NCBI RefSeq assembly: GCF_900094935.1
Contig: NZ_FMBA01000001.1
Coordinates: forward strand, 1-64,000
Direction of reading: 5' to 3'
DNA: 64,000 bases
Source: Gilliamella intestini
GTDB taxonomy: Bacteria; Pseudomonadota; Gammaproteobacteria; Enterobacterales; Orbaceae
Part shown: positions 5,628 through 43,708 of the stretch, piece by piece
Layout: every line of letters begins with the position of its first letter
Numbering within the stretch: position 1 is the stretch's first letter
Notes under the pieces: generated by a model
Seen by the model: the letters and a program-made list of their open reading frames with translations, nothing else
What the model was told of the DNA's origin: nothing
Database searches by the model: none
Translations under genes and position numbers: made by a program

Positions 5628-6644
5628 TTAATCTTTTTCTGGCCAAATAATACTGGCAATGACACCTAAAGCAAGTATACCTAAAATGATATAAAGACTT
5701 GTAGTTGCATCTATATCAATACCATACCCAAATAGGTGATTACTTGCATTTAAAGCTAATTTTCCTGCAATAAAAAAAAGTAAACAGGTAACCGCTTTAC
5801 CAATGTGAACTAAATATTGCTTCATTGCTTGTAAAATAAAATACATTGTTCTAAGGCCTAAAATGGCAAAAATCATGGCACTATAAACGATTAACGGTTC
5901 TTGACTAACAGCGATCACAGCAGGAACTGAATCAAATGCAAACATGACATCACTAAGTTCAATTACAACAATACATAAAAATAGTGGTGTAGCATAAAAA
6001 AAACTTTTAGGTATTTTACCAACTAAATTACTATTTTCAGGTTTTGTAAGTTCTGCATCAAGTTGCTTTTGTGATAATAAAAAACGATGGCCAACAATTT
6101 TGGGATAAGATGGAAAAATACGTTTGGCGATGCGGAAAGCAAAGTGATTTGAGTAATCTTTTATATTTTGTTCATTGTCTTGATTTCTCAACATCATTAC
6201 TCCTGTGCAAGCAACCAAAATTGAAAACACAAATTCCATCCAAGGACCTAAATATAGCAATCCTGTACCAAGGATAACAAATATGGCACGAAATATAATA
6301 GCACCAATAACTCCCCAATAAAGTAATCGATGACGATAATTATTTGGTACTGAAAACCATGAAAAAATAGCCATAATTACAAACAAATTATCGACTGATA
6401 AAGCTTTCTCAAGAACGTAACCAGTAATAAATAAACTAGCCACCTCTCGGCCATGATGGATGTATAAAAATAGAGCAAATGCTAATGCAACTATTACCCA
6501 AAATACTGACCAGATAATAGCATTGTTTAAACTGATAGATTTATCGCTATGATGGGCATATAAATCAATAATAATTGCAGCCAAGGCTAGTCCAATAAAT
6601 ACCAACATCGTTTCTATTGGAAAACCTAATGAATGTTGAATCAT
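5628..6644 (-). CDS. TerC/Alx family integral membrane protein
   Basis: Protein of 338 residues with about 9 membrane segments. The TerC-family acidic motifs EKALSVDNLFV and ELSDVMFAFDSVPAV are both present. The closest enteric relative is Alx, a pH-responsive protein implicated in manganese export; the metal here is inferred from the family. I place the start at the ATG at 6644 (MIQHSLGF) because an AGG lies about 10 nt upstream; the frame extends to a TTG at 6665, which lacks a better ribosome site. No alx-type riboswitch was recognised upstream. Confidence 0.85.
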   Translation of the reverse strand: MIQHSLGFPIETMLVFIGLALAAIIIDLYAHHSDKSISLNNAIIWSVFWVIVALAFALFLYIHHGREVASLFITGYVLEKALSVDNLFVIMAIFSWFSVPNNYRHRLLYWGVIGAIIFRAIFVILGTGLLYLGPWMEFVFSILVACTGVMMLRNQDNEQNIKDYSNHFAFRIAKRIFPSYPKIVGHRFLLSQKQLDAELTKPENSNLVGKIPKSFFYATPLFLCIVVIELSDVMFAFDSVPAVIAVSQEPLIVYSAMIFAILGLRTMYFILQAMKQYLVHIGKAVTCLLFFIAGKLALNASNHLFGYGIDIDATTSLYIILGILALGVIASIIWPEKD

Positions 6645-11085: not shown

Positions 11086-11781
11086 TTAAAAAATATCTTT
11101 AATAATTAGTACAACGCGCCCAACAATATGATATTTATGAAAATCATTCTTGGGTACTTCAATGGTAGGGTGTTGACTATTATTACAAATTAGCAACCAT
11201 CCATCGAGAGTTAAGCGTACCTTTCTTAAAAAAGTTATATCTTCATATTCAATTAGGTAGATAGCCCCATCAACAATATCATTTATTTCAGTGTTAAGAA
11301 TTAGACCATTATTGTTTTCTATATCTGGCGACATTAAATCACCTTTAGCCCAGTATATGATTAACCTTTTAGCATCTAAACCACGATGTTTGACCCACCC
11401 CTCAATAATGGGATAGTTCATTACAGGAGGTGTTTCTCTAATAAAACGTTCCTTTTGTGCCTCTTCTTTAGTTGGTAATTGTTTTTTATAGACAGGAATT
11501 CGATAAATATTTTCGTTGTAAACATCTTCTTCGTCTTTCGAATCCACAAATTCTTGTCTATGGCCGGTGGCAAGCCAATTGAAAGATACATTACATTTTT
11601 CAGCAATAACTTCTAGACGAATAAGTGACGGGTAGGTTTTACCCGATAAATAATCTCTAATGACTGTTTCAGACATATCGCATTTTTTCGCGAAGGCGGA
11701 AATAGATAAGCCCTGCATTGAGCTGTGTAATCTGTCTTTAAATGTTTTGACATTATTATTTTTAGTTACTTTCATCTTCAT
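11086..11781 (-). CDS. Phage repressor-like XRE/S24 regulator, protease site apparently lost
   Basis: Protein of 231 residues. An N-terminal XRE helix-turn-helix (about residues 15-75, with ISAFAKKCDMSETVIRDYLSG) is followed by a LexA/CI-type S24 domain (about 125-231). In active S24 repressors the serine sits in a GDSM motif and the lysine in VKR; here the corresponding positions read GDLM and LRK. Both catalytic residues therefore seem replaced, which would make a non-cleavable repressor not directly inducible by RecA. It stands alone beside an IS remnant with no other phage genes. A promoter (TTTAAA 11833-11838, TATAAT at 11811-11816, minus strand) and a large dyad at 11859-11901 precede it, so autoregulation is likely. 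A second in-frame ATG lies 6 bp downstream. Confidence 0.82.
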   Translation of the reverse strand: MKMKVTKNNNVKTFKDRLHSSMQGLSISAFAKKCDMSETVIRDYLSGKTYPSLIRLEVIAEKCNVSFNWLATGHRQEFVDSKDEEDVYNENIYRIPVYKKQLPTKEEAQKERFIRETPPVMNYPIIEGWVKHRGLDAKRLIIYWAKGDLMSPDIENNNGLILNTEINDIVDGAIYLIEYEDITFLRKVRLTLDGWLLICNNSQHPTIEVPKNDFHKYHIVGRVVLIIKDIF

Positions 11782-12138: not shown

Positions 12139-12170
12139 ACAAATAAAAACAAATAAAAAACAAATAAAAA
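12139..12170 (+). repeat. Three tandem ACAAATAAAA iterons
   Basis: ACAAATAAAA begins at 12139, 12149 and 12160, i.e. 10 and 11 bp apart, in phase with the helix. They lie directly upstream of a -35 box at 12173 and could act as an UP-type A-tract element or as protein sites. Confidence 0.5.
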
Positions 12171-12172
12171 TA

Positions 12173-12200
12173 TTGACTCAAGCGAAAAAAAATGGATAAT
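12173..12200 (+). promoter_or_regulatory. Strong sigma70-type promoter of candidate small RNA
   Basis: TTGACT (12173-12178) and GATAAT (12195-12200) are separated by 16 bp, with an A-rich region upstream. Predicted transcription start is near 12207. Confidence 0.6.
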
Positions 12201-12206
12201 AAGCAG

Positions 12207-12293
12207 GGTAAGGATTTTTCATTGTTTTCTTTCCTTATATTCCTTATATTTCATGTTGGCCTGTATAGTTTTATACAGGTCTTTTTTTATTTT
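12207..12293 (+). ncRNA. Candidate small RNA (promoter-terminator unit without ORF)
   Basis: A transcript of about 85 nt would run from the promoter at 12173-12200 to an intrinsic terminator. It has no start codon followed by a meaningful frame. It is U-rich in its middle, with two copies of TTCCTTATA, and CCTT segments like these can pair with Shine-Dalgarno sequences. The terminator stem and U-tract would suit Hfq binding. It resembles no small RNA I know. It could instead be a leader attenuated before tatA, which starts about 110 bp further on. Confidence 0.5.
12258..12293 (+). terminator. Intrinsic terminator of candidate small RNA
   Basis: GGCCTGTATA (12258-12267) pairs with TATACAGGTC (12272-12281), one G-U pair included, around GTTT. 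It is followed by TTTTTTTATTTTT. Confidence 0.8.
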
Positions 12294-12401
12294 TGAACTA
12301 TTCATGAAATCCCTTCATAAAAAGAGTATAATCAGTATTCTATAAAACTTGCTTTAAAGCTTATCCTAACAGAGCGTTATATTTATTGAGAGGATTTGAT
12401 T

Positions 12402-12581
12402 ATGTCTTTTAGTATTCCACATCTTTTAGTGTTTCTTGCCGTGGTGATTTTATTATTTGGCACTAAGAAGTTACGTAATTTAGGTTCGGATCTTGGTTTA
12501 GCGCTGAAGGGTTTTAAAAAAGCGATGAATGATGACGAAGTTGAATCAAAAAGTGATAATAAGTTAGATGATAATAAATAG
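12402..12581 (+). CDS. tatA: TatA/TatE-type twin-arginine translocase subunit
   Basis: Protein of 59 residues from the ATG at 12402, which has GAGAGG 8 nt upstream. A short N-terminal membrane helix ([16 protein letters not shown], residues 4-19) is followed by the amphipathic helix [20 protein letters not shown] and an acidic tail, the TatA layout. TatA oligomers form the export path for folded proteins in the inner membrane. No tatB or tatC is adjacent; the next gene is ubiI. It is shorter than E. coli TatA (89 residues) and close to TatE (67), so the symbol is provisional. Confidence 0.85.
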
Positions 12582-21514: not shown

Positions 21515-21589
21515 GGATTCCTCATATTAAAAATTTTTATTTTTAACAGAGTTAGAGCGGGCATGTTCTATTTATAATTAAAAAGTACA

Positions 21590-21770
21590 AACCATGAAGC
21601 GCTCCACCTGTTAAGGTGACAACCCAAGGGATTCAGCCCTTGCAGTCGATTTGATTACTTCTGGATGGGTAATCAAACCTCGGCATTACGTCCCCTCGAT
21701 CATTTATTAGTGGTTCCAGGCCCTAAAATGACTTACCTGAGTAATGCGCCTCTTCGTTTTGCAACTTCTG
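21590..21770 (-). ncRNA. Lysine riboswitch (L box) of lysC
   Basis: The minus-strand leader of lysC carries the conserved lysine aptamer core. In order: GAAGAGGCGCATTACTCAGG, GAGGGGACGTAATGCCGAGG, GGGCTGAATCCCTTGGGTTG, TCACC. These match the E. coli lysC element (AGAAGAGGCGCG, CGCCGAGGUGAU, GGGGCUGAAUCCCCUGGGUUGUCACC). Lysine binding is expected to repress. No terminator hairpin with a T-tract lies between the aptamer and the ATG, so control is probably at translation start, as in E. coli. Boundaries are approximate. Confidence 0.93.
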
Positions 21771-34300: not shown

Positions 34301-34679
34301 AAGTGAAATTAACCGATAAGCCGGGTTCTGTCGTGGACAATCATTCCTCTAGGCTAATACTCACGCATTAGCTCAAGCAGTCTACCCGGATTCAACGCGG
34401 GCCACGCCAATGAATCCCTATTTGACCTTGCTCCGAGTGGAGTTTACCGTGCCACAACTGTTACCAGTTGCGCGGTGTGCTCTTACCACGCCCTTTCACC
34501 CTTACCTGATCTTATAAAATAAGCCATCGGCGGTTTACTCTCTGTTGCACTAGTCGTGAATTTTAGCTCTCGCCAAAACTCCCCAGGTGTTACCTGGCAC
34601 TCTGCCCTATGGAGCCCGGACTTTCCTCCCCTTTGTTTCTTTATAAAAACAACAAAGCAGCGATTGTCTGGTTAATTTC
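34301..34679 (-). ncRNA. rnpB: RNase P RNA component
   Basis: About 379 nt, class A, close to the E. coli length of 377. The 5' end GAAATTAACCAGACAATCGC parallels E. coli GAAGCUGACCAGACAGUCGC. Conserved blocks include GGGGAGGAAAGTCCGGGCTC, GGGTGAAAGGGCGTGGTAAG and GACAGAACCCGGCTTATCGG. The 3' end pairs with the 5' end (P1: GAAATTAACC/GGTTAATTTC). It forms the catalytic core that matures tRNA 5' ends. The promoter is directly upstream. Confidence 0.98.
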
Positions 34680-43344: not shown

Positions 43345-43438
43345 TTCCTCGCTCATATATTCACTATATGGGCACCGAGGAATGTCTGAATTAGAGATCG
43401 GTCATTCCATTTTTTATATTTATTTTAAGAGGTTTATT

Positions 43439-43708
43439 ATGTCTCTAACTGTAGAAGCTAAAGCGAAAATCGTTGCCGAATATGGTCGTGGCACTAACGA
43501 CACTGGTTCAACAGAGGTTCAAGTTGCTCTTTTAACTGCACGTATTAATGATTTACAAGGTCATTTTTCTGAGCATAAAAAAGATCACCATAGCCGTCGT
43601 GGTCTATTACGTATGGTGTCTAGCCGTCGTAAATTATTAGATTATTTACGTCGTAAAGATATTGAACGTTATAACCAATTGATTAAAAAACTAGGTTTAC
43701 GTCGCTAA
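43439..43708 (+). CDS. rpsO: 30S ribosomal protein S15 (uS15)
   Basis: Protein of 89 residues from the ATG at 43439, with AAGAGG 7 nt upstream; a longer frame from 43382 would add 19 unrelated residues. [20 protein letters not shown] and [20 protein letters not shown] are the S15 signatures. S15 nucleates the platform of the 30S subunit. The E. coli rpsO-pnp order is kept. S15 may bind its own leader, as in E. coli. Confidence 0.98.

Follow-up and report, generated by a model that had tools for sequence, protein, structure and literature searches.

What does a short stretch of the Gilliamella intestini genome encode, when a promoter-like sequence and a terminator-like hairpin enclose about 80 nucleotides with no evident reading frame, and how could it act? 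The locus lies between a divergently transcribed regulator gene and tatA in the window, by which we mean the whole 64-kb stretch of DNA that was analysed, from a genome (G000) that is a 2.5-Mb draft. Its features, in window coordinates, are as follows.

11086-11781, minus strand: divergent HTH/Peptidase S24 regulator gene (domain matches; syntenic genus-wide)
12139-12160, plus strand: ACAAATAAAA 'iterons' 1 and 2, with the adjoining downstream bases (present; mean conservation 0.63)
12161-12172, plus strand: UP-element-like A-rich block, consensus CAAATAAAAACG (mean conservation 0.94, 34 species)
12173-12178, plus strand: -35 hexamer TTGACT (0.98 conserved, TTGAC invariant, 34 species)
12195-12200, plus strand: -10 hexamer GATAAT (6 of 6 columns invariant, 34 species)
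12206-12288, plus strand: small RNA of about 83 nt, 5' end inferred to within 2 nt either way (49 of the 50 columns 12208-12257 invariant, 34 species)
12208-12238, plus strand: predicted 5' stem-loop, GUAAGGA (12208-12214) with UCCUUAU (12232-12238), in both the MFE and the centroid structure
12231-12239, plus strand: anti-Shine-Dalgarno (anti-SD) copy 1, TTCCTTATA (invariant)
12240-12248, plus strand: anti-SD copy 2, TTCCTTATA (invariant; mostly unpaired by predicted unpaired probabilities)
12237-12254, plus strand: seed complementary to an adhesin 5'UTR, AUAUUCCUUAUAUUUCAU (18 contiguous pairs; gene start at G000:C16:3944)
12258-12281, plus strand: intrinsic terminator hairpin, 10-bp stem and 4-nt loop (compensatory changes at 3 pairs)
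12282-12288, plus strand: T7 tract, the terminator tail and a possible Hfq contact (sequence and conservation)
12396-12581, plus strand: downstream tatA (ATG at 12402), separated from the small RNA by the terminator

The element is present in 35 of the 35 Gilliamella genomes examined, all matched by a covariance model (R1), and wherever the flanks are readable it is placed between the S24-type regulator and tatA. In an alignment of 34 loci from 34 species, mean column identity is 0.60-0.63 upstream of the promoter block, 0.94 in the UP-like block, 0.98 in the -35 and 1.00 in the -10 hexamer, 0.999 in the RNA body, 0.93 in the terminator, where there are compensatory changes, and 0.74 downstream of it. 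The first-pass annotation of this DNA had proposed looking for the promoter and terminator in sister species, and both are kept in every one. The near-consensus promoter that it described, TTGACT and GATAAT with a 16-nt spacer, stands at 12173-12200. Such matches are frequent in a region this AT-rich, so that the hexamers by themselves are a weak observation, and a promoter-score scan returned 15 sites against 12.3 expected in shuffled sequence, which is unremarkable alone; we take them as real because they are kept across the 34 species, the -10 invariantly and the -35 at 98%. The iterons fared less well. Three perfect 10-bp copies of ACAAATAAAA do start at 12139, 12149 and 12160, at the 10-11 bp spacing reported for them, but the array is not conserved with the locus across the 34-species alignment: there are zero invariant columns in 12140-12160, and the first two copies are confined to this strain and a handful of its near relatives. 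The sole conserved 'iteron' is the promoter-proximal copy, joined to the -35 as the A-rich UP-like block. As judged from the alignment, the first two are strain-level decoration and not essential.

The predicted RNA is laid out as a U-rich loop, two copies of an anti-SD motif, UUCCUUAUA, a terminator and a T7 tail, and its fold is more stable than those of shuffled sequences (z = -4.8). Both anti-SD copies that had been claimed were found, at 12231-12239 and 12240-12248, and both are invariant; the predicted 5' stem partly hides the first. Nearly all columns of this stem are invariant, and for this reason it is without covariation evidence either way. The 10-bp-stem terminator with its T7 tract, also claimed earlier, was recovered at 12258-12288, with 14 cells changed on both sides of the stem versus 3.1 in shuffles (0 of 500). 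We sought a conserved open reading frame and found none with a conserved end, since C-termini and stop positions vary among relatives through the terminator loop, in agreement with the original statement that the RNA holds no ORF. A search of Rfam 15 at gathering and at relaxed thresholds placed no family above threshold for the window RNA, which had been described at the outset as matching no known small RNA. From the lack of a conserved frame end and of an Rfam family, together with the stable fold, we conclude that the locus is a self-contained sRNA gene some 83 nt long; the independent 80-90 nt sRNA with two anti-SD motifs first proposed here is supported, with its promoter and terminator conserved. 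Elsewhere in the window, a Lysine riboswitch (21589-21762), an RNase P RNA (34301-34679) and an S15 leader (43378-43495) stand above Rfam thresholds.

The upstream neighbour had been read as an orphan phage repressor. It does have HTH and Peptidase S24 domains, but the gene is syntenic throughout the genus, with orthologues 47-99% identical, which makes it a resident regulator, not the orphaned remnant of a phage; it may have a role in controlling the sRNA. On the other side, the distance from the RNA core to tatA varies from 181 to 510 nt, and tatA has a promoter-like site of its own (12304-12332). Among GTDB genomes the RNA core is matched exactly in Gilliamella or 'Orbaceae bacterium' records, bar one stray 22-mer, and the window RNA (family fam1) was not found outside Gilliamella in the genomes searched. 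The stray, an exact copy of TTTCCTTATATTCCTTATATTT at 6118-6139 of a Lachnospiraceae MAG contig (JAFLTC010000018.1, L053), is probably a chance match.

The reverse complement of the RNA resembles a translation start region. In its own genome, a 17-nt exact match spans the Shine-Dalgarno (SD) sequence of an inverse autotransporter gene (PF11924, E 2e-100) encoding an intimin/invasin-like adhesin, which we found in 34 of the 35 Gilliamella genomes. The 5'UTR retains GAAATATAAGGAATA, in which about 17 bp across the SD are complementary to the RNA and the changes are wobble-compatible: among the 30 adhesin loci read, TGAAATATAAGGAATA is largely kept, bases further upstream are scrambled, the conservation coincides with the complementary stretch (around AGGA, positions -8 to +6), and where A changes to G, at columns -7, -1 and +6, a G-U pair with the RNA can still form. 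Contiguous helices were compared, the duplexfold ranking being uninformative as it joins helices through large loops, and all helix energies given here were computed with a simplified stacking table and are meaningful only relative to one another. Over 25 distinct sequences the best contiguous helix with the adhesin averages -22.2 kcal/mol, with a median of 17 bp; 200 shuffled sRNAs give -10.3 +/- 1.4, the best of them -17.95 (0 of 200), and the control start regions of tatA and the S24 gene have helix energies at chance level. In a joint fold of sRNA and adhesin mRNA (ddG -17.1 kcal/mol), the sRNA stem, the terminator and a hairpin at the mRNA start remain intact. Fam1 was not detected in other Orbaceae genera, and the seven adhesin orthologues taken from these retain an SD without the extension, with a helix energy of -11.4. 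What speaks most strongly for a functional pairing is this co-occurrence of the extended target site and the RNA. We stress that the adhesin and loiP, considered below, were picked from matches in the window strain, so that only the other genomes are an independent test. The adhesin loci (L165-L194) also share a conserved mRNA hairpin, ATTAAGAT...ATCTTAAT, that encloses the start codon, and its sequence elements are shared by most of the orthologues seen in the other Orbaceae genera, which suggests further post-transcriptional control.

A weaker, second candidate target is the mRNA of the LoiP protease (a lipoprotein, NF052399), whose start region keeps ATATAAGGAAA in most genomes and whose helix scores -15.1 against -10.1 +/- 1.2 in shuffles (0 of 200). 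The search for targets combined BLAST and pattern matching with a 450-kb sample of stretches biased to contigs with hits; general enrichment for start-region pairing is modest in this partly selected sample. Other starts in the window genome that bear ATATAAGGAA include those of a VWA protein, two membrane proteins and an autotransporter of ESPR type ('membrane' and 'ESPR' being read from sequence), which points to envelope functions for these candidates. Two possibilities were set aside: an OprD-like porin is a weak target, its site poorly kept and equalled by 1 of 200 shuffles, and AAAACAATGAAA is unconvincing as a seed, with eight non-sRNA matches, several of them at exported-protein starts.

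The covariance model built from the alignment also retrieved a further pair of loci from the window genome; both share with the window RNA the core UUUCAUUGUUUU and UUCCU...UUCCUU, and each has a terminator of its own.

G000:C28:19954-20025, minus strand: fam2, Orbaceae-wide, invariant core UUCAUUGUUUUCCUAUUCCUUAU across three Orbaceae genera (loci L118, L106-L117, L119, L121, L123)
G000:C54, about 64405-64488: fam3 (loci L038, L120, L124, L125)

The fam2 terminator changes on both arms, genome G062 has several copies, and a search with the family's own model found it in 18 of 296 genomes, all Orbaceae, with zero in the other Enterobacterales sampled. Matches of 28-35 bits and the common core make descent of fam1 and fam2 from one ancestor likely; the relation to fam3 is weaker (24-30 bits). 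fam3, which is also present in another Orbaceae genus (L120), adjoins a response regulator of the copper/silver type (TIGR01387, above cut-off), and upstream of it in L120 lies a palindrome, ATGACAATCTTGTCAT, that resembles what we take to be a CusR box; fam3 may thus be copper-responsive. We tentatively suggest, while holding it somewhat less probable than its converse, that Orbaceae have an undescribed family of dispersed sibling sRNAs with the UUUCAUUGUUUU...UUCCUU core, which through different promoters and one anti-SD seed would jointly gate adhesins for colonisation of the bee-gut host. The fam1 promoter would then be a strong one, possibly tied to the S24 regulator, and another sibling has a copper-type two-component system next to it.

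The window RNA has its own conserved promoter and intrinsic terminator, no conserved ORF, and conserved complementarity to a distant mRNA, as a trans-acting sRNA does. We therefore consider it very probable that it is a stand-alone Gilliamella sRNA, predicted to be bound by Hfq and to pair over the adhesin SD, more weakly over those of loiP and other envelope mRNAs, and so to block ribosomes. An Hfq gene (PF17209, over cut-off) is present in its own genome and in 39 of the 39 well-assembled genomes searched. The sRNA would be transcribed from a sigma-70-type promoter and make contact with Hfq at its U-tail and U-rich body; the two would cover the SD of the adhesin mRNA, with anti-SD copy 2, largely open, as the main seed and copy 1, part-held in the 5' stem, as an alternative; ribosome binding would be blocked and less surface protein made. 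Its most likely effect is thus to shut off production of the surface adhesin by pairing at the ribosome-binding site, and other envelope proteins are probably repressed likewise, although the sRNA might instead activate, or the mRNA might titrate the sRNA.

Could the sRNA be real and act mainly on other messages, metabolic ones for instance, so that its matches to the adhesin and loiP are by-products of a general anti-SD sequence? UCCUUA complements any UAAGGA Shine-Dalgarno, the two halves of the RNA, 5' and 3', are equally invariant, and one genome (G008) keeps the RNA without an adhesin match, so that the adhesin target alone cannot explain the invariance. However, the adhesin complementarity goes with the presence of the RNA and continues for about 7 nt on the upstream side of AAGGA, and TATAAGGA, seen in just 6 of the 364 start regions sampled, is not general SD context; we regard this alternative as unlikely, though far from negligible. 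The RNA might instead be a sponge or mimic that, through its 5' GUAAGGA and anti-SD repeats, binds sibling sRNAs, other RNAs or protein rather than mRNAs. It does carry both SD-like and anti-SD motifs, and its core is common to the sibling RNAs, but the long conserved complementarity to an mRNA start, present in the genus that bears the RNA and absent from relatives in which none was detected, makes such a role quite improbable.

Three further readings were dropped. The element lies upstream of tatA throughout the genus, as a cis-acting leader or attenuator of that gene would, and the RNA contains a TTG codon with AAGGA ahead of it, as though a leader peptide (for example MFSFLIFLIFHVGLY..., initiated at TTG) were made. 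Against the former stand the strong conserved terminator, tatA's own promoter-like site, the variable distance, and loci with the same core elsewhere beside other neighbours; against the latter, the frames end at different places, shifted by loop indels, and no synonymous variation was seen. We give this pair of readings very little weight. As for replication- or plasmid-type iterons accompanied by an incidental promoter and terminator and no RNA gene, the three perfect 10-bp repeats 10-11 bp apart invite the idea, yet most relatives are without the repeats while the RNA is invariant there, and we accord it practically no credence.

We found no publications on sRNAs of Gilliamella or Orbaceae in the literature searched. 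The sRNA described here would be a first one, genus-wide and with a named, directly testable target, an intimin-like adhesin, in a dominant culturable bee-gut symbiont. It also offers an unusually clean evolutionary case: a single genus has both the sRNA and its target site, and the search of the sister genera turned up neither.

The window RNA is a new RNA family of a known type, whose predicted mode of action is closest to those of LhrC and NmsR, described below. By eye there is a loose likeness to RyhB and FnrS in a CAUUG..UUCC..AUU stretch, with no Rfam match and no Fur box seen. MicA and RybB, enterobacterial Hfq sRNAs that repress outer-membrane proteins, would act alike, by blocking ribosomes on envelope mRNAs, but they have a sigma-E promoter, whereas the promoter here is sigma-70-like by sequence, and the window RNA gives no Rfam match. 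In Listeria, the multicopy LhrC sRNAs use redundant CU-rich motifs to bind the adhesin mRNA lapB and impede its translation (PMC4132741). The window RNA likewise has repeated motifs aimed, by prediction, at an adhesin message; LhrC, in contrast, is 111-114 nt long with three CU motifs, belongs to a Gram-positive bacterium and acts on lapB independently of Hfq, and against the LhrC family model (RF01457, rli22) the window RNA scores 24.3 bits, below the gathering score of 80. The Neisseria sRNAs NmsRA and NmsRB (NgncR_162/163) are siblings with two UC-rich alpha-SD regions, fully conserved, that down-regulate their targets at the SD (PMC5362039). Compared by description, they are a tandem pair acting on TCA-cycle mRNAs, whereas in Gilliamella the loci are dispersed and the best target is an adhesin.
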